A stretch of DNA of 64,000 nucleotides from Marinitoga piezophila KA3 (GTDB lineage Bacteria; Thermotogota; Thermotogae; Petrotogales; Petrotogaceae), in contig NC_016751.1 in the NCBI RefSeq assembly GCF_000255135.1, positions 124,001 to 188,000 of the forward strand, written 5' to 3'. The notes under the pieces were generated by a model, which was given only the letters and a program-made list of their open reading frames with translations, was not told the DNA's origin and did not search any database. Positions within the stretch are counted from its first letter, which is position 1. Each line of letters starts with the position of its first letter. Positions 32,819 through 51,200 of this stretch are shown here, in pieces. The translations under genes were made by a program, and so were the position numbers.

Positions 32819-32977
32819 GCCACCTCAATATTCAATAAAATAAATTCATTAATGCTCTATCATTATATAAAAGAAATATTGAAAAAATCTTTAATTTTCA
32901 TTAAGATATCTATATATAGTAGTTATTAATTTCTCAAATACTATACATAGCAACTTAAAATAAAAATATTATAGTAC

Positions 32978-33006
32978 TTGACAAATTATAAAAATTACAG
33001 TATAAT
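32978..33006 (+). promoter_or_regulatory. consensus sigma-70 promoter of the 33.0-35.2 kb operon
   Basis: TTGACA (32978-32983), a 17-base spacer and TATAAT (33001-33006) match the consensus perfectly. It is the strongest-looking promoter in the window. Confidence 0.8.
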
Positions 33007-33036: not shown

Positions 33037-33564
33037 ATGGATTTAGATTTTATCTCATTTGAAACATTTGGTATATTTATAAAAGACGGTTTTTATCCAT
33101 TACTAGATGGTTATGGTAGTAGTGGAATGTTAGAACTAATAAAATTTGATCCATCTGATGAGTATCCTGAAGTTTATTATAGTGAAGCCAAAAAAGAGGA
33201 ATATCCTTTTCTTGATTTTAATGTAGAGCCATATGAAGTTACAACCCCTCCAAAGATTTTAGATGATGGAACAGAAGCAATAACGATGTATAAAGTATAT
33301 AAAACCAATAATGAAAGAGTTTATGTAAGAGAGTTATATAGAAGGATTAAGAGACTAAAAAATGGGGAAGTGAAAATTATAGAACAATATTATGATGAAG
33401 GAGATGTAATTGTATTAGAGAATGAGGAAAAAAAGGTATTTGTTATGCATAAAGGTTCATTTGGTATTGATTTAAATTTAGATGATGATGACAATGTAGT
33501 AGAAGTTAGTGATGTATATCAATATCCTGATAAAGAAAAGAGGTGGGGCGATGAAAAAGATTAA
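33037..33564 (+). CDS. acidic protein of unknown function, first gene of a three-gene operon
   Basis: The 175-residue product is very acidic (about 41 Asp/Glu against 22 Lys/Arg by hand count) with a run of four Asp near the C-terminus and many aromatic residues. It appears to be soluble, mostly beta-rich, without signal peptide or membrane segment. I do not recognise the family. GGAGGG precedes the ATG. Its end overlaps the next gene by 14 bases, so the protein is made together with the HsdS-like and HsdM-like products. The strong negative charge would fit a DNA mimic or an inhibitor of the DNA-binding partner, but this is speculation. Confidence 0.75.
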   Translation: MDLDFISFETFGIFIKDGFYPLLDGYGSSGMLELIKFDPSDEYPEVYYSEAKKEEYPFLDFNVEPYEVTTPPKILDDGTEAITMYKVYKTNNERVYVRELYRRIKRLKNGEVKIIEQYYDEGDVIVLENEEKKVFVMHKGSFGIDLNLDDDDNVVEVSDVYQYPDKEKRWGDEKD

Positions 33565-34129
33565 ATTAAAGGAAATATCAAATATTTTTTTATCACCTCA
33601 GGTAGAAGAAACACCTGAGGGCAATCTTAATTATATAAAACTTTCATCAATAACAAAAAACAAAATAGAGATAGAAAAACTGTCAAAAGCTGTGTATAAT
33701 AAAAATAGAAACATAGAAAAATATCTCTTAAAGAAAAACGACATAATCTTCAGCGCAAAAGGTTCAAATATCTTTGCTGTCCATATTGATAAAGACATTC
33801 CAAATCTCATTTCTGCACAATTCTTTTTTAATATTAGAATCAATTCTGATAAAATACTTCCAGAATTTCTCACAATAATATTAAACAATGAATATGCAAA
33901 AAGATATTTTGAAGAAAGACGTGTTGGTAAGATAATTAAAGTTATTAAGAAAAAAACACTTGAAGATTTTGAATTAACATTACCCCCGCTTGAAATACAA
34001 AAGCAAATAATAGAAATTGTAAAAAACTTTGAAAAAGAAAAAGAATTAAAACTAAAAAGCCTCCTGCTAAAAGAAGAGCTAATAGACAAAACAATATTCT
34101 TAAAAGTATGGAGTGATTTAAATGTATAA
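33551..34129 (+). CDS. half-size HsdS-like target-recognition protein
   Basis: The 192-residue protein looks like one half of a type I specificity subunit. It has a single target-recognition domain (about residues 1-145; Asn-Tyr-Ile-Lys-Leu-Ser-Ser-Ile, then Leu-Leu-Lys-Lys-Asn-Asp-Ile-Ile-Phe-Ser-Ala-Lys-Gly), then the typical Leu-Pro-Pro-Leu-Glu-Ile-Gln-Lys-Gln-Ile and a conserved helix. Full HsdS proteins have two such units in about 400 residues; half-size forms can dimerise. ATG 33551 is after AGAGGTGG; a longer frame from 33509 lacks a site. No hsdR lies nearby, and the neighbour at 34122 is only remotely HsdM-like. Confidence 0.75.
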   Translation: MKKIKLKEISNIFLSPQVEETPEGNLNYIKLSSITKNKIEIEKLSKAVYNKNRNIEKYLLKKNDIIFSAKGSNIFAVHIDKDIPNLISAQFFFNIRINSDKILPEFLTIILNNEYAKRYFEERRVGKIIKVIKKKTLEDFELTLPPLEIQKQIIEIVKNFEKEKELKLKSLLLKEELIDKTIFLKVWSDLNV

Positions 34130-35234
34130 AACAATAGCGGAAATACTGAAAAATATATGGCAACATTCGGATTCAAAAAATCTGGAATTAATCCAGACAC
34201 AAACGCATTTAATAGCATTTTATAAATTCCTATACGACTTAAAAACAGAAAAAGATTACATAACTCAAAAACATGAATTAATTGAAAAAACAGAAAATAT
34301 AGAAATTTCACTCTTAAACTCGGAAAACTTTTTTGAACAGATAAAAAAACAACTATCCTTTATTGAAAATGCAGAAAATATTCCAGATATTCCCGATGAA
34401 TCAAGAACAAAAGTATTTAGATTATTAAACAATCTTGATTTTTCAAAAAATATATTAAGAGGAACATATAATGAAATTATAAATACATTCCTTGATACGT
34501 TAAATACGCTTCCAGAAAGAAATTTGCAAAGGAATATAAGAAACAATGAAAATGAGGACTTGCATATATTCATAAGTATAAAACTCAAAGAACTAAAAAA
34601 AGCATTAGCAGAAACAATTACATCTAATGAGAATGTTCACATCACAAATCCTTATTTAACAGGAATTTTACCGGAAAAAATTTCAATTTTATATAACCCA
34701 GAAACCGCTGAAAAAAAGATAATCTTTGAAATATACAAATACCTTATTCAGGCTAATGAAATTAAATCAGAAAAAATAAATACAGAAATAGATTTTATTT
34801 CCTTATTCAATAAAAAATGCGAAAAAGAAATAAAATTAAATACCAAAAAAATACTTATCTTTGACTCGGAAAATTGTGCAAAACGATTCCACGAAAACAA
34901 CAGTCAATACTCAAAAAACATTGAAAAAATGATAAAAATAAATGGCAAAAATGAATTATACATCTATCTAATAAACCCAAATAAAAAAACAGAAAATATA
35001 ATAATAATCAATACAAACCAATCAGGAAAAACAGATAAAATAGAAATAAAAGAAAAAGAAGTTATAAACCATAACTTCTCTTTTGATATTCAAAACTATC
35101 AATTCACAAACGAAAAAATAAAAGAAGATATCGAAAAAATAAAAATACTCCTTGAAACAGAATACTCAGAAAAAAAACAAAAAGAAATAGGTCTAAAAAC
35201 GCTGGAGTTATTATCAGAGTTATATAAAGAATAA
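34122..35234 (+). CDS. unknown protein resembling a catalytically dead HsdM
   Basis: The 370-residue protein overlaps the HsdS-like gene by eight bases. Its N-terminus (Ile-Leu-Lys-Asn-Ile-Trp-Gln-His-Ser-Asp, then Leu-Ile-Ala-Phe-Tyr-Lys-Phe-Leu) echoes the helical N-terminus of type I methyltransferase subunits. Its C-terminus (Ile-Ile-Ile-Ile-Asn-Thr-Asn, then Asn-His-Asn-Phe-Ser-Phe-Asp-Ile-Gln-Asn-Tyr-Gln) echoes the HsdM 'DyNLNxxRY' tail. I find no Asn-Pro-Pro-Tyr/Phe motif and no Gly-rich SAM loop; Leu-Tyr-Asn-Pro-Glu-Thr-Ala stands where 'DPxCGSG' would be. It is also shorter than HsdM (usually about 500). The resemblance is by eye and could be wrong. If right, the pair would bind specific DNA without methylating it. 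Confidence 0.5.
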   Translation: MYKTIAEILKNIWQHSDSKNLELIQTQTHLIAFYKFLYDLKTEKDYITQKHELIEKTENIEISLLNSENFFEQIKKQLSFIENAENIPDIPDESRTKVFRLLNNLDFSKNILRGTYNEIINTFLDTLNTLPERNLQRNIRNNENEDLHIFISIKLKELKKALAETITSNENVHITNPYLTGILPEKISILYNPETAEKKIIFEIYKYLIQANEIKSEKINTEIDFISLFNKKCEKEIKLNTKKILIFDSENCAKRFHENNSQYSKNIEKMIKINGKNELYIYLINPNKKTENIIIINTNQSGKTDKIEIKEKEVINHNFSFDIQNYQFTNEKIKEDIEKIKILLETEYSEKKQKEIGLKTLELLSELYKE

Positions 35235-35367
35235 TTATTTTAAAAAGATAAAAAATTACGAAACAGAAATAAAAAGCTGTGAAATATAAAAAATAATAAA
35301 AGTTGATATTGTTTTATAGTTAAACTTAGATGTTGGAATGTTATAGGATGAAATTTATATAAAAATA

Positions 35368-35376
35368 TGGTATAAT
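35368..35376 (+). promoter_or_regulatory. extended -10 promoter of the type III R-M operon
   Basis: TGGTATAAT with TATAAT at 35371-35376 and no clear -35 box. It lies 57 bases ahead of the mod start, in a 198-base gap that otherwise holds nothing I recognise. Confidence 0.5.
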
Positions 35377-35432
35377 TTTTTAGGATTTTTGAATATACTA
35401 TTTTTGAAAACAAATTTATGAAGGAGGAAATT

Positions 35433-37577
35433 ATGATTAACGAAGAAAATATTTTTGAACAAAATCTTCCGGATAATATTTATATTTTAAAAAAGTATTT
35501 CCCTCAATGTTTTGATAAAGAAGGTAATTTTAATTTAGAAAAGTTTAAAGAAGAAATAAAAATAAATGAAATTAACTTATCAAAAGAGAGTTACAGTCTT
35601 GAATGGCTTGGAAAAAGTTATGCGAGAGTATTAACTCATGAGCCTGTTAGAACTTTTATAAAAGAAGATGAAGAATTTAATTCGAAAGAAGAAAATAGAA
35701 AATCACAAAATCTTCTTATAAAAGGTGATAATTTAGAAGTATTAAAACATCTTTTAAATGCATATAGAGAAAAAATAAAAATGATATATATCGATCCACC
35801 GTATAATACAGGAAAAGATGATTTTGTATATCAGGATGACAGAAAATTTTCAAAGGAAGAATTGTCTAAATTAGCAGGAATTTCTGAAGAAAAAGCAAAA
35901 AGAATTTTGGATTTTGTAAATAGTAAAAGTAATTCACATTCTGCATGGCTTACTTTTATGTATCCAAGACTTTACATAGCTAGGCAATTTTTGAGAGAAG
36001 ATGGAGTTATTTTTGTGAGTATTGATGATAATGAAGTTGCACAACTAAAAATTTTAATGGATGAAATTTTTGGGGAAGAAAATTTTATTGCATTGTTATC
36101 CGTTGAAAACAATCCTAAAGGTAGAAAAAATTCTAATTTTGTTTCAATTTCAAATGATTATTGTTTAATTTATGCAAAAAATAAAGGTGAAAGTTATTTT
36201 ATAGAAAATCTTCCTAAATTAAAAACAGAATTAAAAGTGGATGAATTTGGAAGATACTATACTCATGGAAAAAGAGTTATTGTTGGTGAGAGTTCAAATA
36301 AAGAAGTGTCAGTTAATTCTGATAAACATTATACGGTTTATTACAATGAAAGCGAGAAAAAAATTGTTATAAAAAAAGAAGAAAATATTAATACTATAGA
36401 TGTAAAATTGATACAACAGGGATATAAAAGATATATCTCAACAAAAAATGGCAAATTTATAGAAAATACATATACATCTTCAAAATTTAAAGAATTATTT
36501 GAAACCAATTCTTTAATTTTTAAAGAGAATTCTATTTATGAGAAAGATTTTAATACTTTTATTAGAATAAAAAGTATTTTAAAAAATACTGATGAAATTG
36601 ATTTAAAAACAGAAACTGCAGGAACATATCTTAATAATCTTTTTGGAATACCAAATGGCAAAGATAAAAAAATTTTTGATAATCCTAAAAATCCTTCTTT
36701 CATTAAGTTATTAATTACGCTTTTTGAAGAAAAAGATTTTCTTATTTTAGACTTCTTTTCCGGTTCTGGAACGACAGGCGATGCAGTAATGCAACTAAAT
36801 GCAGAAGATGGGGGTAATAGAAAATATATTTTGGTTCAATTACCAGAGCCGATTGAGGAAAAGAAAAACAAAACTGCTTATGATTTTGTAAAAAATGAAC
36901 TTAAGGTAGATAATCCTACTATTTTTGATATAACAAAAGAAAGGTTAATTAGAGCAGCTAAAAAAATAAAAGAAGATGTTGAAAATGAATTGAAAAATAA
37001 AAAGGAAGAATTAGAAAAAATAATAAACAAAAAAAAGAAAAATAAAAAAGATGAGGAAAAGATAATAATACTCAATGAAGAAATAAATAAATTAGAAAAA
37101 AAAGTGAATAATATAAAAAATCAAGATTTAGGATTTAAAATATTTGAAACTATTCCAAATAATGAAGGAAAATGGGAAAGTTATAAAATTAATGCTAAAG
37201 AATTTAATCCAAAAATAAAATTATTTGATGAGAATAAGTTAACTAATGATGATTTAAAAACACTTCTTACTACATGGAAACTATATGACGGAATAATTTT
37301 AACAGAAGATTTAAAAGAACTTGATCTTGATGGATATAAAAGTTATTACCATCATGAAAAAGGAATTCTTTATCTTATAAATAAGGAATTTAAAACGGAA
37401 AATTTAAAAAAATTATTAGAAGAAATAGATGAAAATCCAAACTTTAATCCTTTGAAAATAATAGCATTTGGATATCATTTTGAAAGTAAAGTGTTGAGAG
37501 AAATTGCAGAAAATCTAAAAAATTATATCAATAAAAAAGAAAGTGCAGATAATATTGAGTTTATAGTGAGGTATTAA
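35433..37577 (+). CDS. mod: type III restriction-modification system methyltransferase (Mod)
   Basis: Mod recognises the target and methylates adenine N6 on one strand. The 714-residue protein is a beta-class methyltransferase by motif order: catalytic motif IV Asp-Pro-Pro-Tyr-Asn-Thr-Gly at about residue 121 comes before SAM motif I Asp-Phe-Phe-Ser-Gly-Ser-Gly-Thr-Thr-Gly at about 440. The roughly 300 residues between hold the target-recognition region. A Lys/Glu-rich coiled coil (about 515-565) follows. The start is ATG 35433 after AAGGAGG; an ATG at 35418 lies ahead of that site and would have the site inside the gene. res follows after two bases. No frameshift or phase-variable repeat tract is seen. 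Confidence 0.93.
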   Translation: MINEENIFEQNLPDNIYILKKYFPQCFDKEGNFNLEKFKEEIKINEINLSKESYSLEWLGKSYARVLTHEPVRTFIKEDEEFNSKEENRKSQNLLIKGDNLEVLKHLLNAYREKIKMIYIDPPYNTGKDDFVYQDDRKFSKEELSKLAGISEEKAKRILDFVNSKSNSHSAWLTFMYPRLYIARQFLREDGVIFVSIDDNEVAQLKILMDEIFGEENFIALLSVENNPKGRKNSNFVSISNDYCLIYAKNKGESYFIENLPKLKTELKVDEFGRYYTHGKRVIVGESSNKEVSVNSDKHYTVYYNESEKKIVIKKEENINTIDVKLIQQGYKRYISTKNGKFIENTYTSSKFKELFETNSLIFKENSIYEKDFNTFIRIKSILKNTDEIDLKTETAGTYLNNLFGIPNGKDKKIFDNPKNPSFIKLLITLFEEKDFLILDFFSGSGTTGDAVMQLNAEDGGNRKYILVQLPEPIEEKKNKTAYDFVKNELKVDNPTIFDITKERLIRAAKKIKEDVENELKNKKEELEKIINKKKKNKKDEEKIIILNEEINKLEKKVNNIKNQDLGFKIFETIPNNEGKWESYKINAKEFNPKIKLFDENKLTNDDLKTLLTTWKLYDGIILTEDLKELDLDGYKSYYHHEKGILYLINKEFKTENLKKLLEEIDENPNFNPLKIIAFGYHFESKVLREIAENLKNYINKKESADNIEFIVRY

Positions 37578-37579
37578 AT

Positions 37580-40453
37580 ATGATGAGATTTCATTTTGAA
37601 AAAAATTTAGAACATCAAAATCGTGCTGTAGAATCTATTATTAACGTTTTTAAAGGTGTTGAGATAATAGAACCATTTGGAATAGAAAAAGAATATGTTA
37701 ATCCTATTTTCAATAAAGATACAAATTTTAGTTACGTAAATAATATTGGAAGTATTCAAGAACAAAATGATATTAAAAGAAATGTGAAAGGAAAAAGTAA
37801 TATTATAGATATTATGATGGAAACGGGAACTGGAAAAACATATACATATACAAAAACTATTTTTGAACTCAATAAGTTATATGGAATTTTTAAATTTATT
37901 ATAGTTGTTCCAACAATAGCAATTAAAGCTGGAACAATAAATTTTTTAAGATCAGAAAGTGCAAGAGAACATTTTAAAGATCAATATGGAAAAATTATTG
38001 AATTACATGTTGTAGCGAGTCAAAAATCTAATAAAAATAAAAAATTATATATGCCACAAGCTGTTAGTAATTTTGTAAATGCTGGAAGATTTGAAAAAGA
38101 TAAAATACATGTTCTTATTATTAATCTAGGAATGATAAATTCTCCAACTATGAAAAAAAGTTATGATAAAACTTTATTAGATAAATATTCAGTACCATTT
38201 GATGCAATTGCTTCAGTAAATCCTTTTATGATTATTGATGAACCACATAAATTCGATAAATCTAATAAAACTTGGAAGAATATTCGAGAAAAAATGAAGC
38301 CACAATTCATTTTAAGATTTGGAGCAACTTTTAAGGAATATGAAAATTTAATATATACACTTACAGCAGCAGAAGCATTTAATAGAAATTTGGTAAAAGG
38401 GGTTATTGCTCATATTACAGAATTTGAAGATGGGAAAAATGTATTTGTTAGATTTGTAAATTCAAATGGAAAAGAAGCGACATTTGAATTAACCAAAAAA
38501 GGTAGTTCAAAAAAAATTTTTAAATTAATAAAAAATGAAAGTCTTGAAAAAATACATCCTGCAATGAAGAATTTAATTATTGAAAAATTAAATGAAAATA
38601 CTATTATTTTATCTAATGGTTTAGAACTTAAAAAAGGAGATAAAATAAATCCTTATTCCTATGCTGAAAAATTGCAAGAAATAATGATCAAAGAAGCTGT
38701 TAAAAATCATTTCAAATTAGAAAAAGAATATCTTACAAGAAATATAAAAATAAAGCCGTTAACTTTATTTTTTATAGATAATATTGATGAATATAGAAAT
38801 AAAGAAGGTTATATTAGAAAAACACTTGAAAATTATGTTGAAGTAGAAGTAAAAGAATTATTAAAGAAAGAAAAAAATGAATTTTATAGAAATTATCTAA
38901 AAAAAACTTTAGAAGATATTTCAAAAACCCATGGTGGATATTTCGCTGCAGATAAAAGGGAAAATGATGAAGTTATCGAAAAAGAAGTAAATGAAATATT
39001 ACATGATAAACAAGCAATATTAGATTTGGAAAATCCAAGAAGATTTATATTTTCAAAATGGACTTTAAGGGAAGGTTGGGATAACCCTAATGTTTTTCAA
39101 ATATGTAAATTAAGAAGTAGTGGTTCAGAAATTTCCAAATTACAAGAAGTTGGAAGAGGATTAAGATTGCCTGTGAATCAATATGGTAACAGAGTTAAAA
39201 ATGAACAATTCTATTTACATTATTTTGTAGATTTTACTGAAAATGATTTTGTGGAAAAGTTAGTTAAAGAAATAAATGATAAATCAGGAGCTATTTCGAG
39301 AGAGGATAAACCTGAAAAACTTGATGATGTAATGATTAAAAGAATCTGTAAAATTTATAAAATTAGTGAAGAAGAGTTATTAGAAACTTTAGATAAAAAT
39401 AATGTTATAACAAGAACTAATAAATTTAAAGAGAATGGATTTGAATATATTAAAAAAAATTATCCTCTTATATTTAATGGAGTTAATTCTAATAAAATAA
39501 AAAAAGATACTGAATTCAAGAAAAAAGTAAAAATAAGAGTTGAAAAATATCCATTATTAAAGGAGCTTTGGGAAAAGCTTAATGAAAAGGTTATACTTGA
39601 ATATAAAATAAAAAATGAAGAACAATTCAAGGAAATATTTTTGGATTTTTTAAAAAAATATGACCCTTTTAAACCAGAAATTTTTCAAGAAAAAATTAAA
39701 AAATTAAATTTTGAAAATTATGAAGCAATGGTAAATGAAGAAATTTCAATTTATGGTGAAGAAAATAGTTTTATTCAAACAATGAGTTATGAGGAATTTC
39801 TGAAAGAATTATCTAAAAAATTATATATAAATATAAAAACTTTGCATAATGCTTTTGTAGAAGCCGAAATAGAAATGAATAAATATCTTAATCAAACTAC
39901 AATTAGATTATTCAAACAAAAATTTGATAATTATTTAATGTTTAATGCATTAAATAAATTTAGTATAGAATATCAGAAGGTTACTGGTTCAATTCATCCA
40001 ACTAAAATTACTAATTCTGATGGGATGGTTAAAAAAGAAATTGATTCCTCTGATATTGGAATTTTCTATTCGGAAGAACAAGTTTCTGATGATTATTTAT
40101 TTGAAGAATTATTTTATGATTCAGATTTGGAAAGAGAAAATATAAAAAAAGAAATAAAAGAAATAATTGTTTTTACAAAAATTCCTAAAAACTCCATAAA
40201 AATACCGATAGCTGGTGGAAAAACATATTCCCCGGATTTTGCATATGTTTTAGATTATGAAAATGGCCAAAAGAAGATGTATTTTATTGTAGAAACAAAG
40301 GATACTGATAAAGATAGTTTAAGAGATGAAGAAAGAATAAAAATAAAACATGCAGAGAAATTTTTTGGAGATACTATAAAAATTAAATTTAAAACTCAAT
40401 TTAAAGATGACGACATAGCAAATTTAATAAAAGAAATTTATAAAGATATTTAA
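37580..40453 (+). CDS. res: type III restriction-modification system helicase-nuclease (Res)
   Basis: Res moves or signals along DNA after ATP hydrolysis and cuts with Mod when two unmethylated sites meet. The 957-residue protein has the SF2 helicase motifs Glu-Thr-Gly-Thr-Gly-Lys-Thr (about residue 83), Ile-Ile-Asp-Glu-Pro-His (about 219) and Gln-Glu-Val-Gly-Arg-Gly-Leu-Arg-Leu-Pro (about 530). A C-terminal PD-(D/E)XK nuclease carries Pro-Asp at about 884 and Val-Glu-Thr-Lys at about 905. All key motifs appear intact, so the system is probably active. It starts two bases after mod and is followed by the first terminator-promoter cassette. Confidence 0.93.
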   Translation: MMRFHFEKNLEHQNRAVESIINVFKGVEIIEPFGIEKEYVNPIFNKDTNFSYVNNIGSIQEQNDIKRNVKGKSNIIDIMMETGTGKTYTYTKTIFELNKLYGIFKFIIVVPTIAIKAGTINFLRSESAREHFKDQYGKIIELHVVASQKSNKNKKLYMPQAVSNFVNAGRFEKDKIHVLIINLGMINSPTMKKSYDKTLLDKYSVPFDAIASVNPFMIIDEPHKFDKSNKTWKNIREKMKPQFILRFGATFKEYENLIYTLTAAEAFNRNLVKGVIAHITEFEDGKNVFVRFVNSNGKEATFELTKKGSSKKIFKLIKNESLEKIHPAMKNLIIEKLNENTIILSNGLELKKGDKINPYSYAEKLQEIMIKEAVKNHFKLEKEYLTRNIKIKPLTLFFIDNIDEYRNKEGYIRKTLENYVEVEVKELLKKEKNEFYRNYLKKTLEDISKTHGGYFAADKRENDEVIEKEVNEILHDKQAILDLENPRRFIFSKWTLREGWDNPNVFQICKLRSSGSEISKLQEVGRGLRLPVNQYGNRVKNEQFYLHYFVDFTENDFVEKLVKEINDKSGAISREDKPEKLDDVMIKRICKIYKISEEELLETLDKNNVITRTNKFKENGFEYIKKNYPLIFNGVNSNKIKKDTEFKKKVKIRVEKYPLLKELWEKLNEKVILEYKIKNEEQFKEIFLDFLKKYDPFKPEIFQEKIKKLNFENYEAMVNEEISIYGEENSFIQTMSYEEFLKELSKKLYINIKTLHNAFVEAEIEMNKYLNQTTIRLFKQKFDNYLMFNALNKFSIEYQKVTGSIHPTKITNSDGMVKKEIDSSDIGIFYSEEQVSDDYLFEELFYDSDLERENIKKEIKEIIVFTKIPKNSIKIPIAGGKTYSPDFAYVLDYENGQKKMYFIVETKDTDKDSLRDEERIKIKHAEKFFGDTIKIKFKTQFKDDDIANLIKEIYKDI

Positions 40454-40488
40454 TATTGAAACTTAACTATTTTAAAAATTTAGAATTT

Positions 40489-40553
40489 CCCTTCCGACAA
40501 AATTCGGAAGGGCTTTTTATAATTTTAGTATGGTATAATTTTAATATAGCAAA
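40489..40553 (+). repeat. terminator-promoter cassette, copy 1
   Basis: The 65-bp unit is a terminator (stem CCCTTCCGA/TCGGAAGGG at 40489-40512, then CTTTTT) directly followed by an extended -10 promoter (TGGTATAAT, -10 at 40534-40539). It closes the type III R-M operon and starts the AAA-ATPase gene at 40588. It is identical to copy 3 at 44772-44836. Confidence 0.85.
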
Positions 40554-40587
40554 GAAAATCCATAATACTTTTTAAGAGGTGGGGTAA

Positions 40588-42339
40588 ATGAAAAAGAAAA
40601 TACCATATGGAGAACAAAATTTTGAAAGATTAAGAAAAGATAATTATTATTATATAGATAGAACAGAATATATAGAAAAGTTAGAAAATTTAGATGAAAA
40701 ATATATAGTATTTTTAAGGCCAAGAAAGTTTGGAAAAACATTGTTTTTAGATACACTTGGAAAATATTATGATATCAATTATAAAAATAAATTTGAAGAA
40801 TTATTTGGAGATTTATATATCGGCAAAAATCCAACACCATTAAAAAATGAATATTACATATTATATATGGATTTCTCAGGAATACAAACAGAAAACAAGG
40901 ATATATTAATAAAAAGTTTTAAAAATAATGTAATAGCTTCACTTGTAGATTTCAATAATAGATATAATTTAGAATTAACAATAAAAGAAGAATATAGTGA
41001 ACCAGCAGATATAATAAGAGCTTTTTTAACTGATACGAAAGATATTTTAGACAAACCAATATATTTATTAATAGATGAATATGATCACTTTGCCAATGAA
41101 TTATTGAGTTTTAATCTTGACTTGTTTAGAGATAGCGTAACGAAACACGGATTTGTAAGGAAATTCTATGAAGAAATCAAAAAAGGAACAAAAACAATAA
41201 TAAAAAGAATATTCATGACAGGGGTAAGCCCTATTATGCTTGACTCATTAACCAGTGGATTTAATATTACAATGAATATAACCTTAGAAAAAGAATTTAA
41301 TAGAATGCTTGGATTTACAAAAGAAGAGGTAATTGAATTATTAAAATATTATGAAATATATTCAGATAAATTACTTAAAGAAATGGAAGAAAATTATAAT
41401 GGCTATAAGTTCAATCCAGATGCAAAAGAAACAGTATATAACCCTGATATGGTATTTTATTTCATAATAAAATATCAAAGGGGGAAAAAACCACCGGAAA
41501 AAATAATAGACGACAACATATTAAGTGATTATAAAAAAGTACAAAACCTATTTGATTTAGGGGAATTACTAGGAGTAGCGATAGAAAATAATAAAGATTT
41601 GTCAAAAGAAGAAAGAGAAAAAGAAAGTGCAAAAAGGATAATAGGAGAATTATTAAATGAAATACTATTAACAGGAAAAACAACCTTACCGGAACTCACA
41701 ACAATATTCAATCCAGGAAAAAGGATAGAAACAAAAGACATAAAATCATTATTATTTTATCTTGGATTTATGACATTTGAAAGAGAAGGAATAAGAACAT
41801 ATTTAAAAATACCAAATTACTCAATGCGAAAGATATTCTCAGATTATTTCACAGAATATATAGAAGAAAAACTAACGGATATAATAGACACCGGTAAAAT
41901 AGAAGATGCAATAATAAGTCTATTATCAGAAGGAACAATAGAACCATTTGTAAAAGAGATAGAAAATATATTAAAGAAACTGGATAATAGAATATTCATG
42001 GGATTTGATGAAAAATATATAAAAATACTCATGTATAGTTATTTAGTATTAACCTCATTAGCAATGGTAAAAATGGAATATCCAGTAGAAGGCGGATATG
42101 TAGATATAGCAATATTCAAAAGATATGAAGAAGTGCCATATGAAGCGATAATAGAAATAAAATACATAAAACAGAACGAATATACCGAAAGTAAATTCAA
42201 GGAAAAAATCGTTCAGGCGAGAGAACAGATAGAAAGATACAAAAAATCATATGAATTAAATTCAAAAAATGAGAAAATGAAAAAATTCATAATAATCTTT
42301 GTTGGGAAAGAAGCTAAGTTGGTTGAAGAGGTGGAATAA
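40588..42339 (+). CDS. AAA-ATPase-like / PD-(D/E)XK nuclease fusion protein (paralogue 1)
   Basis: The 583-residue protein has an N-terminal AAA-ATPase-like (PF09820-type) domain with Arg-Pro-Arg-Lys-Phe-Gly-Lys-Thr (residues 44-51) as Walker A and Leu-Leu-Ile-Asp-Glu-Tyr-Asp as Walker B. A C-terminal PDDEXK_9-type nuclease-like domain follows (Gly-Tyr-Val-Asp-Ile-Ala, then Ile-Ile-Glu-Ile-Lys near residue 535). Such fusions are amplified in many anaerobes; roles in mobile elements or defence are suspected but not established. AGAGGTGGGG precedes the ATG. Its last 20 codons are nearly repeated as a remnant at 44836-44895, proof that a close third copy once lay there. Confidence 0.85.
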   Translation: MKKKIPYGEQNFERLRKDNYYYIDRTEYIEKLENLDEKYIVFLRPRKFGKTLFLDTLGKYYDINYKNKFEELFGDLYIGKNPTPLKNEYYILYMDFSGIQTENKDILIKSFKNNVIASLVDFNNRYNLELTIKEEYSEPADIIRAFLTDTKDILDKPIYLLIDEYDHFANELLSFNLDLFRDSVTKHGFVRKFYEEIKKGTKTIIKRIFMTGVSPIMLDSLTSGFNITMNITLEKEFNRMLGFTKEEVIELLKYYEIYSDKLLKEMEENYNGYKFNPDAKETVYNPDMVFYFIIKYQRGKKPPEKIIDDNILSDYKKVQNLFDLGELLGVAIENNKDLSKEEREKESAKRIIGELLNEILLTGKTTLPELTTIFNPGKRIETKDIKSLLFYLGFMTFEREGIRTYLKIPNYSMRKIFSDYFTEYIEEKLTDIIDTGKIEDAIISLLSEGTIEPFVKEIENILKKLDNRIFMGFDEKYIKILMYSYLVLTSLAMVKMEYPVEGGYVDIAIFKRYEEVPYEAIIEIKYIKQNEYTESKFKEKIVQAREQIERYKKSYELNSKNEKMKKFIIIFVGKEAKLVEEVE

Positions 42340-42375
42340 AAGAATGTAAAATATAGTAAAAAAAGGGGGGATATT

Positions 42376-42846
42376 ATTAAAGTTAATATAAATGATCTTA
42401 TTGGAGAAATGGAAATTCAAATGGCGGAAACAACTACATATTATAACAAAAAAAATGGAGAATTTATTATGATTGAAGACGAATATCTTCAAGATGCTGA
42501 GGATGATGATTATGATAATATATATTCAAAAGCCGATGAATGGGAAAAGGAACAATTAAAATTGGCAGAGGATATATTAAGTCATCCGGAAAATTATATT
42601 CCAATACCATCACAATATGACATTCATGAATATATGATCATGAAAAAGTTTTCTATTTATATGGTTGATGACGAAACTTCTGAAATATTATTAAATGCAA
42701 TTAGAGGTAGAGGAGCATTTAGAAGATTCAAAAATGAAATTTTTAGATTAGGTCTAAGAGAAAAATGGTTCGATTATAAAACAGAAAAATATAAAGAAAT
42801 CGCTATAGAATGGTGTGAAAAACACGGAATAGAATATGAGGAATGA
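42376..42846 (+). CDS. UPF0158-family protein with non-standard start
   Basis: The product ends with the UPF0158 pattern Arg-Gly-Arg-Gly-Ala-Phe-Arg-Arg-Phe-Lys, Leu-Gly-Leu-Arg-Glu-Lys-Trp-Phe and Ala-Ile-Glu-Trp-Cys-Glu. Homologues begin roughly Met-Lys-Val-x-Leu-x-Asp-Leu-Ile. The same frame here reads Ile-Lys-Val-Asn-Ile-Asn-Asp-Leu-Ile from an ATT codon at 42376, five bases after a GGGGGG ribosome site, and no ATG, GTG or TTG occurs between the upstream in-frame stop and this point. Either ATT is used as start or the gene has lost its start codon. The first ATG (42409) has a site only two bases away, and starting there would remove eleven conserved-looking residues. Function unknown; a small acidic soluble protein of 156 residues. 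Confidence 0.65.
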   Translation: MKVNINDLIGEMEIQMAETTTYYNKKNGEFIMIEDEYLQDAEDDDYDNIYSKADEWEKEQLKLAEDILSHPENYIPIPSQYDIHEYMIMKKFSIYMVDDETSEILLNAIRGRGAFRRFKNEIFRLGLREKWFDYKTEKYKEIAIEWCEKHGIEYEE

Positions 42847-42966
42847 AAAATAAAATTTAACATAAAAGTGAATTTGTAAAATGGATAGATTTATATATTC
42901 GTGGGAATTTATGTATGTTGGTTATAAACAAATAACAAAAAAATATTTAATTAAAAATTAAAAATC

Positions 42967-43017
42967 CCCTTCCGACAAAGCACGGAAGGGATTTTTATAA
43001 TTTTAGTATGGTATAAT
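42967..43017 (+). repeat. terminator-promoter cassette, copy 2 (diverged)
   Basis: Stem CCCTTCCG/CGGAAGGG, then ATTTTT, then the same 22 bases up to and including TGGTATAAT as in copies 1 and 3. The loop differs (AAAGCA for AAAATT) and the similarity ends after the -10 box. It lies directly ahead of the second AAA-ATPase gene. Confidence 0.8.
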
Positions 43018-43037
43018 AACACCGTGGGGGTGAAAGA

Positions 43038-44744
43038 ATGGAAAAATTGAAGAAACTTCCTCTCGGAAAAAGCGATTTTAAAAGTTTAATAAAAAACAAT
43101 ATGTATTTTGTAGATAAAAGTATGCTTATAAAAGATATATTAGAAGGTGGAGATGTAATATTAATCACTCGACCAAGGAGATTTGGAAAAACATTAAACA
43201 TGAGCATGTTAGAACATTTCTTTTCAATGAAAGAAAACAGTGAGAATTTATTTAAAGATTTAAAAATTTGGAATGAAAAGGAAATAATAGAAAAGTATTT
43301 AAATAAATATCCTGTTATATTTATAACCTTTAAAGACACAAAAAAAGATAAATTACTTTCAATGAAAATAGAAGTAAAAGCATTAATAAGAAAGATATAT
43401 TCAGAACATCTATATTTACTGGAAAGCGATAAATTAAATATACTGGAAAAAAGATATATAAAACAATTGTTAGAATTAGAGGAAATTCCAGGAAAAACAG
43501 ATGAAGAGAAAGATGCAAAAGAAGATACAATATTTGAATCTTCATTAAAAAATCTAACAGAATTTATTTACAAGCATCATGGTAAAAAGGTAATATTATT
43601 AATAGACGAATACGACACACCAATACAACAATCATATCTAAATGGATATTACAATGAATTCATAAACTTCATAGGAAATATGCTTGGAAGCGCATTAAAA
43701 GATAATGAGTATTTGGAAAAAGCAGTATTAACAGGAATAACAAGAGTGGCAAAAGAAAGCATATTCACTGGAGTAAATAATCTTCAAGTATCAACAGTAT
43801 TAAGTGAATTATTCAATGACAAATTCGGAATGACAAAAGAAGAATTACATGAAGCTTTGAAATATTATGGTATGGAATATGAAGAAGAAAAGATAATAGA
43901 ATGGTATAATGGATTTAATTTTGGAGGATTGGAAATATATAATCCATATTCAATAATGAATTTATTATATGAAAAGAAAATAAAGAATTATTGGATAAAC
44001 ACCAGCGGGAATAAATTAATAAAGGATTTAATAGCAAAAGGAACAGCAGAAATAAAAGCAAAGATGTATGATTTAATAGAAGGTGGAACAGTAACAACAA
44101 CAATAAATGAAAATTTGGTATATGGAGATTTAAATGTCAATGTAGAAGAAAGTGTATGGACATTATTTCTATTTACTGGATATTTAACCTGGATAGATAA
44201 AAAAGGAGATGAAGAAAATCCAGAATATACATTGAGAATAACAAACAAAGAGACAAAAGGCTTCTTTGAAAGAACAGTGGTGAATATATTAGAAGAAAAT
44301 AGAATAGATTATAAGAGTATAATCTGGTTGCTAACAAATAATAAGAAAAAAAAGTTTGAAGAGGAATTTAAAAAGATAGTAGAAGGAACATTAAGTTATT
44401 TTGATGTAAGCGGAGAAGAACCTGAAAGATTTTACCATGGACTTATATTGGGAATGAGTGTGGGGTTACAAAGAGAATATATAATAAAAAGCAATAGAGA
44501 ATCAGGATACGGAAGAGCAGATTTAATACTGATTCCAAAAGAGAAAAGCAAGCCAGGAATAATATTTGAATTCAAAAAATTAGATATAGACGAAGATAAA
44601 AACTTAAAAGAATGTGCAGAAAAAGGAATGAAACAAATAGAAGAAAAGAATTATGAAGCAGAAATCAAGAGTTATGGAATAGAAAAAATAATAAAAGTTG
44701 CTATTGCTTTTGATAAGAAAGAGGTTGAGATTGTAATTAAATAA
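43038..44744 (+). CDS. AAA-ATPase-like / PD-(D/E)XK nuclease fusion protein (paralogue 2)
   Basis: The 568-residue protein has the same design as paralogue 1 but is clearly diverged. It has Arg-Pro-Arg-Arg-Phe-Gly-Lys-Thr (45-52), Leu-Leu-Ile-Asp-Glu-Tyr-Asp-Thr-Pro as Walker B, and a C-terminal nuclease-like domain with Gly-Arg-Ala-Asp-Leu-Ile-Leu and Ile-Ile-Phe-Glu-Phe-Lys-Lys near residue 515. This subtype (Pro-Leu-Gly-x-Ser-Asp-Phe...Tyr-Phe-Val-Asp-Lys-Ser at the start) is the common form in clostridia and Bacteroidetes. GTGGGGGTGA precedes the ATG. It has its own cassette on each side, so it is a single-gene unit. Confidence 0.85.
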   Translation: MEKLKKLPLGKSDFKSLIKNNMYFVDKSMLIKDILEGGDVILITRPRRFGKTLNMSMLEHFFSMKENSENLFKDLKIWNEKEIIEKYLNKYPVIFITFKDTKKDKLLSMKIEVKALIRKIYSEHLYLLESDKLNILEKRYIKQLLELEEIPGKTDEEKDAKEDTIFESSLKNLTEFIYKHHGKKVILLIDEYDTPIQQSYLNGYYNEFINFIGNMLGSALKDNEYLEKAVLTGITRVAKESIFTGVNNLQVSTVLSELFNDKFGMTKEELHEALKYYGMEYEEEKIIEWYNGFNFGGLEIYNPYSIMNLLYEKKIKNYWINTSGNKLIKDLIAKGTAEIKAKMYDLIEGGTVTTTINENLVYGDLNVNVEESVWTLFLFTGYLTWIDKKGDEENPEYTLRITNKETKGFFERTVVNILEENRIDYKSIIWLLTNNKKKKFEEEFKKIVEGTLSYFDVSGEEPERFYHGLILGMSVGLQREYIIKSNRESGYGRADLILIPKEKSKPGIIFEFKKLDIDEDKNLKECAEKGMKQIEEKNYEAEIKSYGIEKIIKVAIAFDKKEVEIVIK

Positions 44745-44951: not shown

Positions 44952-47900
44952 ATGAAAGAGTTGAAGTTAATTAATTTAAATAAAAATCACTTTGATGAAA
45001 TTGCTGAGTTTATATTGCCTTTATATGAGAAAGATCCTATGAATTTTCTCTTTTTAGGACCTTCTGGTGATTATGTAAAGCAAATTGCAGAAAGTGTTGC
45101 AAGAAAAGTTGATAAGACTATCAATAGAGATGCATTTAGGGTTATAAATCAATATGCTGTTGAGATGTTTAGAAGATATGAGCCAACTTCCCTTTTTATA
45201 GACAGAGATTTTTTAAAAGCCTATATCGCCAAGGAATTAGAAGATTTAATTGAAAAAGAAAAAAATAATATAGAGTTTAGAAAATATGTAAAAACACTTG
45301 CAAAATCAAAACAGGCCATTGAATATTTGCTTGAAATCTTCGAAAAGAAATGGGAAATATCTAGAATTGAAGATGAAAAACTTATTGAAAATCATCCGTT
45401 GTATTCAGAAATAGATAAAGATATGGAAAGTGATAATAATCTCTTTAAACTGTATAAACATCTTGAAGAAAAATTAGAAGATATCTTAAATACAACTTTT
45501 GACGATTCAAAAAACAATGGGAAAAATTATGATCAGATTAGTATTTATAAATGGTTCTATAAGGAATTGCCTGAAATTGAAAAAAAACTTGGAAAAACAC
45601 TTGTTATAAGTGGATTTTTTGATATTCCTCCAATATTAAATAAAGTATTAAAAACATTGTTTAATCTGTTTGATAATGTAATCTTTTTTGCGTGGAATCC
45701 TATTGATGATGAGTCGTTTGAAAGTCTTGAAAATATTCTTTATTTCCTGAAAAATGAAGGTTTTTCTGGAAATTATAAAAAGGAAAGTTTAAAGGAATTA
45801 TTTTTAAATACAACTTTTCAAAAGGGCGTGTTTAAGAATACTGTTCTTGAAATTGAAAATATTGCAAAAGAAATAAAAAGAAAAATAATATACGAGAATT
45901 ATCAACCTGATGATTTCGGAATAATTGTTCCAGATTCACAAACTGCCAATGCATTTGCAGAATTTTTTGAAGAATTAAAGGTTCCATATAGATTAAAAAA
46001 CGATATGCCACTTTCAGAAAGTGTAATGGTATCTAAATTATTATTGCCATTAAAAACAAAATATTCCGGTTATGAGGTTGAAGATTTGCTTGCATTAATA
46101 GAAGCAGGTTATGGCGGAGAACGTTCATTATCAATTGATGAAATAGAATCGCTTTTAAAAACATTAAACCTTTATTATGACTTTCCAAAAGCAACTTTGA
46201 AATCGAGAAAAGAAAAGTGGTTGAGCGTTGTTTCAAAGCGTCTTAAAGAAATAGATAAAGAATTAATTGATTCCGATGAAAAAGAAAGATTGGAATTACA
46301 GAGAGCCGAATTGGAAGAATTAGAGAAGATACTTGAAACATTGTTTGATTTACTGGAAGAAATAGATAAAAACGATTTTGAGCTTACATATTATAGGGAA
46401 CTTTTAAATACATGGATTAAAGAAGGAAGAATAAAAGTAGAAAATATTGATAAGGTTGAAAGTGAATTAAATGCATTGTATAAATTTCATGAACTGCTGC
46501 TTACATTAGAAAAAAATCTGGAACATTTAATACCTGGAAAAATAAAACTTTCAAAGTTCTATAATATTCTTTCCAGTTTAATAGAAACAGAAAAATACAG
46601 AATTTCAGAAAAATATTCCAATACAGTGGAAATATTTTCACTTAATGATTCCAGGTTTGTACATAAAAAGTATAAAATCTTTGTTTCATTTACGGATATG
46701 AATTATCCTTCTATACATATAAATCCATTATTATCGTCTATTACAAAAGAAAATAATTACTCAAAAATCTCTGAGTTACAATTCAGAGAAAATATGTTTA
46801 TCTCAATGCTTTTTGCTGATAATGTGATATTTACATATCCAAAAGCCACATTATCAGGAGAAGAAATCCTTGGTTCCTCATATGAAAAGGATTTTGAAAA
46901 ATTATTTGAAATTAGAGAGTATCCTTTTGCTATAAAAAGCGAAGAGATTATTCCTGAAAACACGGACGAAATTTATTCTCTCGAACAGGCAGCTTTATAT
47001 TTTGCATATAATAATTTAGAGTCCGACCTTGATGAAATTAATGAAGTTATTTCAGAAATTGAAAAATTAAAAGAGAAAAGGGATAATTATAATTGGGTGC
47101 TGGATACCAAATATCCTATTGGGGATATCAGTCATAATAAGATATCCACATATGTTGATTGCCCATTTAAATATTATCTGAAATATATAGCAAGAATAGG
47201 GGCAAATAAGGACTTTTCTATTTTCTATGTAGGTAATTTAAAACATAAGATAATGAAGAAATTATTTGATAAGTATCCAACATATAATTCCATTTATAGC
47301 CTTATTGGAGACGAAGAAAAATTATATGAAGAAATTAAAAGTATTGCTTATGAAGAATGGGATAATTCAGGTGTAGATGAATTGAAATCGTATAAGATTG
47401 TAAAAGAAGTGGAGATTGAGGATATATCACAGGATTTGATCTTTACGATAAAAAGATTGATAGAGTCTTATATTTACTTTAAAAATTCAAAGATTAAAGA
47501 CGAACAAAAGAAGAGGGTAAAATACAAAAAAGTATTGAAAAGTGAATTTCCTGTTTCCGGTAAATATGAAAATTATGATCTTTTTGCAAGGATTGATAGA
47601 ATCGATATTCTTGAAGAAGATGTGATTTTTGATATTGACAAGTCAAAGAATGAATTGATTCCTGTTGGTAAAGAAGAAAAGGAAGCATATTCAATAATAG
47701 ACTATAAAAATAGTAAAAGTTTCCAAAGTGAACAATTATTATTTTATTATTATATATTATTAAGCAATTCTGATTGGAAAGAAAAATTAAAAGAAAAATC
47801 CGTATTTTTGAGCTTCCTTCCAATGAAAGAAAAGGATTTTAATAAAACTGACGCTTTAATATGGATTAAAATAAAAAATGACGATTTGTATATAAAATAT

Positions 47901-48233
47901 TCTGGAAATTCAAATTCATATAATCAAATATCACTAAAAGAATTTGAAAGTTGGTTTAATGAAGTGGTAGATGCCATTAAAAATTCAGAATTTTATCCTG
48001 TTTTTATTAATGATGATGAAAAACTAAAATTTAGATTTTTAGATTATTTAAAATCAAAAGGATACAATGTGAGAAATAGTAATGAAAAATATTATACATG
48101 TGAAGGTAATGATAATCCTAACGGATTATCAATAAAATGTGAGTATTATTCATTATGTAAGATTATGGGATTGGGAAAATATATTAATTTAAAAAATAGA
48201 GATCACTTAAAAGCTAAACGTAAATCTAAATAA
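44952..48233 (+). CDS. addB: AddB-like helicase-nuclease subunit (PD-(D/E)XK, iron-sulfur)
   Basis: The 1093-residue protein looks like the AddB partner of the AddAB recombination nuclease that resects double-strand breaks. The N-terminal Walker A position reads Leu-Gly-Pro-Ser-Gly-Asp-Tyr-Val-Lys, without Gly-Lys-Thr, so ATP binding there is probably lost. The C-terminal part has a nuclease core (Ile-Asp-Arg-Ile-Asp, then Ser-Ile-Ile-Asp-Tyr-Lys) and four cysteines suited to an iron-sulfur staple: Cys-Pro-Phe-Lys-Tyr-Tyr-Leu before the core, and Cys-x12-Cys-x5-Cys at the end. A GGGGGAATG-type site precedes ATG 44952. The addA-like gene follows 13 bases later. It could also be a relative such as RexB. 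Confidence 0.8.
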   Translation: MKELKLINLNKNHFDEIAEFILPLYEKDPMNFLFLGPSGDYVKQIAESVARKVDKTINRDAFRVINQYAVEMFRRYEPTSLFIDRDFLKAYIAKELEDLIEKEKNNIEFRKYVKTLAKSKQAIEYLLEIFEKKWEISRIEDEKLIENHPLYSEIDKDMESDNNLFKLYKHLEEKLEDILNTTFDDSKNNGKNYDQISIYKWFYKELPEIEKKLGKTLVISGFFDIPPILNKVLKTLFNLFDNVIFFAWNPIDDESFESLENILYFLKNEGFSGNYKKESLKELFLNTTFQKGVFKNTVLEIENIAKEIKRKIIYENYQPDDFGIIVPDSQTANAFAEFFEELKVPYRLKNDMPLSESVMVSKLLLPLKTKYSGYEVEDLLALIEAGYGGERSLSIDEIESLLKTLNLYYDFPKATLKSRKEKWLSVVSKRLKEIDKELIDSDEKERLELQRAELEELEKILETLFDLLEEIDKNDFELTYYRELLNTWIKEGRIKVENIDKVESELNALYKFHELLLTLEKNLEHLIPGKIKLSKFYNILSSLIETEKYRISEKYSNTVEIFSLNDSRFVHKKYKIFVSFTDMNYPSIHINPLLSSITKENNYSKISELQFRENMFISMLFADNVIFTYPKATLSGEEILGSSYEKDFEKLFEIREYPFAIKSEEIIPENTDEIYSLEQAALYFAYNNLESDLDEINEVISEIEKLKEKRDNYNWVLDTKYPIGDISHNKISTYVDCPFKYYLKYIARIGANKDFSIFYVGNLKHKIMKKLFDKYPTYNSIYSLIGDEEKLYEEIKSIAYEEWDNSGVDELKSYKIVKEVEIEDISQDLIFTIKRLIESYIYFKNSKIKDEQKKRVKYKKVLKSEFPVSGKYENYDLFARIDRIDILEEDVIFDIDKSKNELIPVGKEEKEAYSIIDYKNSKSFQSEQLLFYYYILLSNSDWKEKLKEKSVFLSFLPMKEKDFNKTDALIWIKIKNDDLYIKYSGNSNSYNQISLKEFESWFNEVVDAIKNSEFYPVFINDDEKLKFRFLDYLKSKGYNVRNSNEKYYTCEGNDNPNGLSIKCEYYSLCKIMGLGKYINLKNRDHLKAKRKSK

Positions 48234-48246
48234 TGAGGTGAAGAAA

Positions 48247-51200
48247 ATGCCTGAAGTTTTAAATATAGAAGAAATGAAAAAGAATCTTGATAAAAATTAT
48301 TTTATTTCAGCTTCTGCAGGTACTGGAAAAACATATACTATAACTCAATATTATGTTGCTATACTGGAAAAATACGAAAAGGAAAATAATCCAGATATTG
48401 TTCAAAATATTCTTGCTGTTACTTTTACCAATAAAGCGGCTGGAGAAATGAAAGAAAGGATTTTGGAGGAGATTGATAAAAAGTTAGATAAAGGAAAAAA
48501 TTATAAATACTGGCGTCAAATAAAAACAAATCTCAATAGTGCATGGATAATGACAATAGACAGTTTCTGCTCGAGAATATTGAGAGAAAATAATATAGCG
48601 ATAGGTGTTGATCCCAATTTTACAATAATCAATGAATTAAGAATGGGAATTGAAATAGAAAAATCTGTCTATAATACATTAAAGATAATATTTTCAATAT
48701 ATGAAGATATTATGGAAGATAAAGAATCAAACATTGAAGAAATTACATTCTTTTTATCGCCTGAACGAAGAGAGACAGTGAAAAAAATTATAAATGAGTT
48801 AATTCAAAATAAAGAAAATTTCATTATTGCATTGAAATTTATACTTCAGGAGCTAAAAATCGATACATTTAAGGAAGTTTTATTGGATACATTAAGAAAT
48901 TGGCGAACTGAAATGAAAATGAGTCAAATTCCTGAATATGATTTACCTAATCCTGATTATAATAAGGTATTATGGCTCTTTAAAAATGCTGTTTTAATAG
49001 CGCAGGAAATATATAACTTATATACAGAAGATCAATTTCAATTTGATTTTAAAGGTGTATTAGCCAAAACGTTGGAAACACTTGAAGATGAAAATATAAA
49101 AGAAAAGTATCAGCATAAATTTAAATATATAATAGTCGATGAGTATCAGGATACCAATTTCCTTCAAAAAGCATTATTTGATAAGATTCATACAGATGAA
49201 AATTATATCTTTTATGTTGGAGACAGGAAACAATCAATATATAGATTTAGAGGTGCAGATGTTTCTGTATTTGCAGTTACAGAAAATGAATTTGAAGAAG
49301 ATAGCAAATTTCAATTAAGGGTTAATAGACGTTCAAATGCAGAAATTGTTGAGTTTGCCAATGAATTTTCGGAAAAGATGCTGTTTAATGATGAATTACT
49401 TGGGGTATATGAAAATGTAAAGAAAACATATGAAAAAATATATAAAAATTTGTTATTTAGTGAAGATAAGGATTATTCTGAATATGAAGTAAAAGACGAA
49501 AACGATGTTATTCCTTCAATTTCAAAAGATGGAACAGATAAAAGAAGAATAAAATATGTAACGTACATAAAACCAAAGAAAAATGATAAAAAGTCAGATG
49601 AAGAAAAGAATATTGAATATGAAACAATTGCCAGAACTATTCAATCATTAATTGGTAAAAAAATGAAATTTAGAAAAAGAGAAAATGGAAAAATTATTTT
49701 TGAAGAAAGAGAAATAAAATATAGCGATATTGCTGTATTATTGAGAGAATTAAAAATTTCAGAAGATAAAATAAGAAAATCATTTAAAAAATATAATATT
49801 CCTTTTTATATTCTTGGAAGTAAATCATTTTATGATAAAAACGAAATTCAGACCATATTTTCTGCATTAAATGCCGTTCAAAATCCTCGTAATGACTTCA
49901 ATTTTTCAGCATATATGATGTCATTAATTGGTGGTATGACATTTGAAAGATTAAATGAGTTCATAGAAATAAAAAAAGGAAATAAGGAAAAATATAGTTC
50001 ATTATATGAAGTAGTAAGCAATAATAAAGATAAACTATCTCCTGAAGAATTAAAAGCATTTGAAGTTCTGGAAAGATATGTGAAATTAAAATACTATTTA
50101 AAACCAACACATATTTTAAAACAATTTATTTCAGAAACAAATTATTTATCAAAATTAACACTGATGTCTGATGCACATTATGCAATAGCAAATGTAAAAA
50201 AACTTATCAATGAAGCTGAACAATATAACACACTTGCTGTTTCATTTGCGGAATTAATAAAATTATTAAAAAAGACATCGGAAGTTTCAGAAAGCGAAGC
50301 AGCTATAGAAGATGAAAAACAAAATGTTGTAAAAGTATTAACAATCCACAAGTCAAAAGGCCTTGAATTTCCTATTGTAATACTTGGTGGCCTTGGTAAA
50401 GAGCTAAATTTAAATTCAGAAGAAGAAACAGGTGAAAATGTCAGTTTAAGTAAGGAAGAAACGGAATTTTCATTGCCAGAAGACAATGTAAGATATTTTA
50501 TTCTAAAAAAATTATTCCTCAAGACAGTTAAAAATATAGAACTTCCTTTAACAGATAAAGAAAAAATTAATGTGGAACTTGGAGAAGGTTTTTCAAAAAA
50601 GTTTGATATTAATAAATTTCTTGAAGATACTGAAGTTTTAAGGTTAATGTATGTTGCAATAACAAGGCCAAAAGAAATGTTAATTCCTATAATTCCTATT
50701 GTTCAGGAAAATAAAACAAAAAAGAAAAAAGATGAAAATGATGATGGAAAGTATAAATATGTAGCCGATTTGTTTATGCATTTTCAATACGAAGACAAGC
50801 GAGATATTATTGCATTAGAAGAGCTTGAAAATAATGAAATATCTGTAAATGAAGAAGTTTCTGAAAAATCGCGTGATATAAAAGAAAAACAATTAAGCGA
50901 TTTAACAGGATTTGCATATAAAAAATATATAGCACCAACATATATAATCAATGAATTAAAAAAGGAAGAAACAACAGATGATTTAACAGAAGAAGGATAT
51001 ATAAAAATCACAGCAGATGATTTCTTTTCTGATGAAGAAAGTATATTAAAAGGAACGGAATTACACAATTTAATGGAAAGTGTTGGTAATTTCAGTCAAA
51101 TATTGAATTTAATCGAAACTGGAGAGCTTCCAGAGGAATTGAATAATGCGTTAATTGAAAGATTATTTTCTGCTAAAAGGTTCAAAACTGAATGGCGACT

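Follow-up and report, generated by a model that had tools for sequence, protein, structure and literature searches.

Half HsdS and a partner without catalytic motifs in Marinitoga piezophila KA3: a candidate non-methylating DNA-binding complex

Could the specificity subunit of a DNA methyltransferase serve a complex that reads its site and leaves it unmarked? The question is raised by three overlapping genes of the marine, heat-loving bacterium Marinitoga piezophila KA3, found in a stretch of 64,000 nucleotides (the window) of a genome that totals 2,244,793 bases over two contigs, the second of which holds 2,231,407 bases. In the first-pass annotation the trio was described as an acidic protein, a half HsdS and an HsdM-like protein devoid of catalytic motifs, which together could bind specific DNA sites without methylating them. 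As a whole, this interpretation is partly supported by the results described here. The features of the locus are collected in Table 1.

Table 1. The trio, its control region and the adjoining island, in window coordinates.
Feature	Coordinates	Strand	Description
Gene 1	33037..33564	+	ORF, 175 aa; acidic orphan protein (pI 4.4)
Gene 2	33551..34129	+	Half HsdS, 192 aa from ATG 33551; one target-recognition domain (TRD); pI 9.5
Gene 3	34122..35234	+	Orphan of 370 aa at the HsdM position; moderate similarity of residues 6-43 to the N-terminal helical domain of HsdM; lacks motif I and motif IV
Sigma-70 type promoter TTGACA-17-TATAAT	32978..33006	+	Consensus match 12/12
Perfect palindrome TTACAGTATA-ATA-TATACTGTAA	32995..33017	.	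Spans the -10 box; candidate operator
Second inverted repeat	32927-32945 and 32970-32988		19 nt, 89%; includes the -35 box
Variable island	33037-44741		Directly upstream of addBA
Complete type III R-M system (Mod, Res)	35418-40453		Within the island, after the trio
AAA-ATPase-like/PDDEXK_9 paralogues, two	40588-42339 and 43038-44744		Flank a UPF0158 gene
addB, addA	44952-51495		Follow the island

The description of three overlapping genes behind one promoter is borne out. Genes 1 and 2 overlap by 14 nt and genes 2 and 3 by 8 nt, and the longest stop-free runs in 500 dinucleotide shuffles did not exceed 93, 103 and 122 codons, against open frames of 175, 192 and 370 aa. Purine-rich ribosome sites precede the starts of genes 1, 2 and 3 (GGAGG, GAGGTGGGG and GGAG, respectively). 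Since genes 2 and 3 each start within the gene before them, translation of the trio is probably coupled. The promoter agrees with the consensus at every position of its two boxes, and a palindrome as good as the one at its -10 box arose in 2 of 100 first-order Markov resamplings; a genome scan allowing up to three mismatches found no second copy. Judged from this arrangement, the promoter appears to be regulated, probably by a repressor. Palindromes upstream of other half-HsdS genes do not exceed chance level, and shared autoregulation therefore lacks comparative support. The second, longer inverted repeat upstream of the trio is possibly a mirrored promoter serving the divergent dNK genes.

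Gene 2 belongs to the Methylase_S family (PF01420, E=2e-13, 51.4 bits against a cut-off of 22 bits), and among solved structures it is closest to type I S subunits (PDB 1yf2, E=1e-12). A single TRD was found in its 192 residues, instead of the two-TRD chain of a full type I HsdS. By its profile match and its length, gene 2 is thus a single-TRD (half) HsdS, as the first reading had it.

The identity of gene 3 is less evident. No model of a known family or system matches it in Pfam, NCBIfam, PHROGs or PADLOC; PF02384 (N6_Mtase) gives no match at E<1, and Pfam HsdM_N none. In agreement with the earlier description, its sequence contains neither a DPxCGSG-like SAM loop (motif I) nor the motif IV signature NPP(F/Y/W), the two hallmarks given for gamma-class methyltransferases in PMC3874165. 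Searches of 103 Thermotogota genomes, viral and genome contigs, plasmids, phages and the PDB returned no homologue above noise, and one weak match within the phylum (L003) turned out to be a DnaG primase. The protein had been said to resemble HsdM at both ends, and this stands for the N-terminal end: residues 6-43 align in register with residues 8-49 of HsdM (HsdM profile, score 23.7, P=0.0015), a score reached by none of 284 unrelated real proteins (maximum 20.8). This result, obtained after several settings had been tried, is moderate rather than strong evidence. The C-terminal resemblance does not stand, being equalled by 32 of the 284 controls and hence not significant. Over the full length, single-sequence hhalign against HsdM gave the same result as shuffled sequences in most settings, and a comparison with the catalytically dead HsdM of genome G132 alone (see below) gave no match. 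Structure prediction added little to the N-terminal match: AlphaFold2 was useless with the single sequence (pLDDT 36) and reached pLDDT 47 with an HsdM alignment (about 65 over the N-terminal 130 residues, below 38 in the core), an alignment that presupposes the HsdM hypothesis, so that the model is not independent of it. Foldseek with this low-confidence model found no match at E<0.001 and no structural match to HsdM. With the N-terminal alignment, and with the gene order and the lack of a canonical HsdM in the genome described below, the descent of gene 3 from HsdM is moderately supported, and we regard it as probable.

Gene 1 is strongly acidic, as first described (41 acidic and 22 basic residues). 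It matches no family in Pfam, NCBIfam, PHROGs or PADLOC, and has no homologue in the 103 Thermotogota genomes, viral contigs, plasmids or the PDB. The suggestion that it mimics DNA was set aside as unsupported, since Ocr is reported to have 6 basic and 34 acidic residues (PMC4872106) and gene 1 has far more basic ones. Gene 1 may be an accessory protein of the complex or may be unrelated to it.

Gene order places gene 3 where an HsdM is expected. Relatives of gene 2 lie directly 5' of an intact HsdM gene in 10 genomes of the wide sample, in genome G024 and on four plasmids, and plasmid relatives directly before hsdM come from Methylobacter, Bartonella, Proteus, Acetobacter and Bacteroides. Among 390 sampled genomes, half-HsdS matches with an adjoining M gene mostly occur in the order half-HsdS then M, and gene 3 holds the hsdM position relative to gene 2. 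The NPPF motif is kept by the M partners of 10 half-HsdS proteins of the wide sample (L151-L156, L159, L161-L163) and of the four plasmid ones; in the M subunit of L045 motif IV reads NMPF. An extra half-HsdS gene before hsdM, besides a full HsdS, is a frequent type I layout (L045:8112-14840; L097, L098, L099, L101, L151-L163). The source genome itself shows no canonical HsdM, its best PF02384 match having E=2e-12, and gene 3 is therefore the only candidate partner at hand for gene 2. Proteins of 965, 509 and 281 aa are among those PF02384 matches; the 509-aa protein was considered as an HsdM and rejected, its locus having no HsdM-profile match. The reported absence of a nearby HsdR is confirmed for the window, in which tblastn with one HsdR query (E<1e-8) found no homologue.

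Within Marinitoga, the locus can be followed to one other genome. A half HsdS 60% identical to gene 2 is encoded in Marinitoga lauensis just before addB, and since addB and addA also follow the island in KA3, these represent one locus. Neither gene 1 nor gene 3 was found in the M. lauensis assembly, which is 87% complete; at the island position it holds only the half HsdS and a fragment of the second AAA-ATPase-like/PDDEXK_9 paralogue. The reading frame of the M. lauensis half HsdS is broken once, near codon 130, and because addA is also broken and the assembly is incomplete, a sequencing error is possible. In all six further Marinitoga genomes, counting M. lauensis, the dNK pair that borders the trio in KA3 has other genes next to it. 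The idea of the trio as a conserved unit therefore does not survive, genes 1 and 3 having no detectable homologues and M. lauensis keeping only the half HsdS, and it is the two-gene theme that recurs in divergent form. As for the proposed position at the edge of a defence island, a complete type III R-M system does adjoin the trio, but this is not in itself evidence of an anti-phage function.

This theme of a half HsdS beside an M-like protein that has lost catalytic motifs (a dead pair) is found in unrelated bacteria. In another member of the Thermotogota (G033, L044) the M protein reads SDTL in place of NPPF, and the gene order is that of the source genome. On a Bacteroides finegoldii plasmid (L100) the half HsdS adjoins an M with IPPF at motif IV, and a screen of the 390 genomes for near relatives of this dead M yielded only ordinary M subunits, at about 40% identity. 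A 9.2-Mb genome (G346, L164:5156-7898) combines a half HsdS with a 679-aa M-like protein that has APPF for NPPF and a long C-terminal extension. Genome G132 carries two copies of a half HsdS with an HsdM-like protein lacking both motif I and motif IV (L157 and L158), whose PF02384 match is confined to the C-terminal third. Between the copies dN/dS is 0.35 for the dead M (445 codons) and 0.22 for the half HsdS (215 codons), so that, on these ratios, the duplicated pair is under purifying selection; the adjoining MoxR-type ATPase has a dN/dS of 0.13. Constraint is weaker in the second half of the dead M (dN/dS about 0.7), and dS declines along the gene, for which reason conversion between the copies may have occurred. 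Each G132 pair (L157:4258-8479, L158:850-4298) is divergent from a MoxR-type AAA ATPase gene followed by VWA-type genes, with which it could form a combined system; the half-HsdS/dead M pair is absent from the three other genomes of the phylum that were examined. In genome G010 (L043:8281-10334) a 493-aa protein with a C-terminal TRD precedes a half HsdS. Its N-terminal part reads YDLVISNVHG at the expected position of motif IV and has no profile match to HsdM, and a further dead pair can here only be suggested. An AbiEi/AbiEii-like pair, recognized by eye, adjoins that locus. Within the short flanks, searched with a single HsdR query, HsdR was seen only where the Asn of motif IV is retained, a suggestive contrast with the dead pairs. 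No description of pairs of a half HsdS and a dead HsdM-like protein was found in the open-access literature searched.

Known systems offer partial parallels. The type 1 1/2 methyltransferases M.AhdI, M.BsaBI and M.PshAI likewise have separate M and single-TRD S subunits, the half S working as a dimer in a 2M+2S complex (PMC3874165); half-HsdS chains are known to pair up as a functional S subunit, and a likeness to homodimeric transcription factors has been drawn (PMC6158711). These enzymes, however, are active, possess motifs I and IV and belong to type II R-M systems, whereas neither motif is present in gene 3 and the trio has no evident nuclease partner. The half-S, M, S, R arrangements of type I systems on Proteus pZN5, in Methylobacter YRD-M1 and in G024 share with the trio the half HsdS followed by M, and their half S is related to gene 2. 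By contrast, their M keeps the motif IV Asn and the SAM loop and is accompanied by a full HsdS and by HsdR, all four of which are missing from the trio locus. Among solved M subunits, those of PDB 7vru, which we take to be the structure from the PacII M1M2S study, come closest to our HsdM alignment. PacII M1M2S is described in PMC9613975 as a non-canonical type I clamp with two different M subunits, the m6A methyltransferase M1 and the m4C methyltransferase M2; gene 3 differs in having no such catalytic centre. Finally, the top PADLOC profile for gene 2 is Mad5 of the MADS system (E=4.5e-20), also a specificity-type subunit, but at 392 positions this profile is roughly double the size of gene 2, and no PADLOC model, of MADS or otherwise, matches gene 1 or gene 3. 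As far as motif content can tell, what is new in the trio relative to single-TRD S/M complexes is the loss of catalysis.

The explanation preferred here, tentatively and at somewhat less than an even chance, is that the products of genes 2 and 3 form a complex that binds DNA at a specific sequence without methylating it, and that this complex descends from an HsdM-HsdS methyltransferase of the single-TRD (type 1 1/2) kind. The half HsdS would dimerize via its conserved helices, the two halves of a split symmetric site being read by one TRD each, and two HsdM-derived proteins would attach through the N-terminal helical domain and the C-terminal coiled coil and close a clamp on the DNA. With the SAM-binding and catalytic centre gone, the site would be held and not methylated; the loss of the motifs in gene 3 argues against methylation by this complex. 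Autorepression, by the gene 2/3 complex or by an unseen regulator, could plausibly take place at the promoter palindrome, and it is our guess that a half-S dimer clamp could read a sequence of this kind.

The main and serious rival, although rated as unlikely, is that the pair is an eroding relic of an orphan type 1 1/2 methyltransferase which has lost HsdR and methylation, genes 2 and 3 having no selected role. Gene 3 is unique among the 103 Thermotogota genomes and the public collections searched and is missing from M. lauensis, the island does not stand beside the dNK genes in any of the six other Marinitoga genomes, and G+C at codon position 3 is 20% in genes 2 and 3 against 11-13% in the adjoining Mod and Res, as in recent arrivals. 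A decaying locus, however, would have to have kept three unbroken frames, a consensus promoter, ribosome sites and overlaps, and dead pairs recur elsewhere, one of them under purifying selection. On the preferred reading the complex would be in use as a regulator or sensor.

Less probable still is that gene 3 does not derive from HsdM, the half HsdS directing gene 3, perhaps together with gene 1, to its DNA site as a new and unrelated effector or adaptor. This would agree with the missing full-length HsdM signal, fold match and family, but leaves aside the in-register N-terminal match that exceeds all 284 controls and the place of gene 3 in the HsdM slot of the operon. Type I enzymes are well known to exchange and recombine their TRDs and S subunits (PMC3874165), which also allows gene 2 to be an alternative specificity subunit of an active methyltransferase elsewhere in the cell; with no canonical HsdM in the genome, and with the adjoining type III Mod belonging to a different class, this is highly improbable.

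Returning to the non-methylating complex, a wider and rather doubtful proposal is that pairs of a half HsdS and a pseudo-HsdM are widespread, selected, non-methylating and sequence-specific DNA clamps that arose on several occasions out of type I or type 1 1/2 methyltransferases and act as transcription regulators or defence sensors, the trio being an extreme case, autoregulated and equipped with an acidic accessory protein. The dead pairs of unrelated bacteria hint that complexes which read DNA and leave it unmodified may form a class of their own, as yet unstudied. If the dead pairs are kept by selection, restriction enzymes would have given rise to DNA-binding complexes able to read split palindromes and leave them unmarked, in parallel to the transcription factors that have evolved from other enzymes. 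Such a class would be invisible to methylome surveys, and annotations of "orphan HsdM/HsdS" would have to be read anew, with the loss of motif IV predicting binding without methylation.
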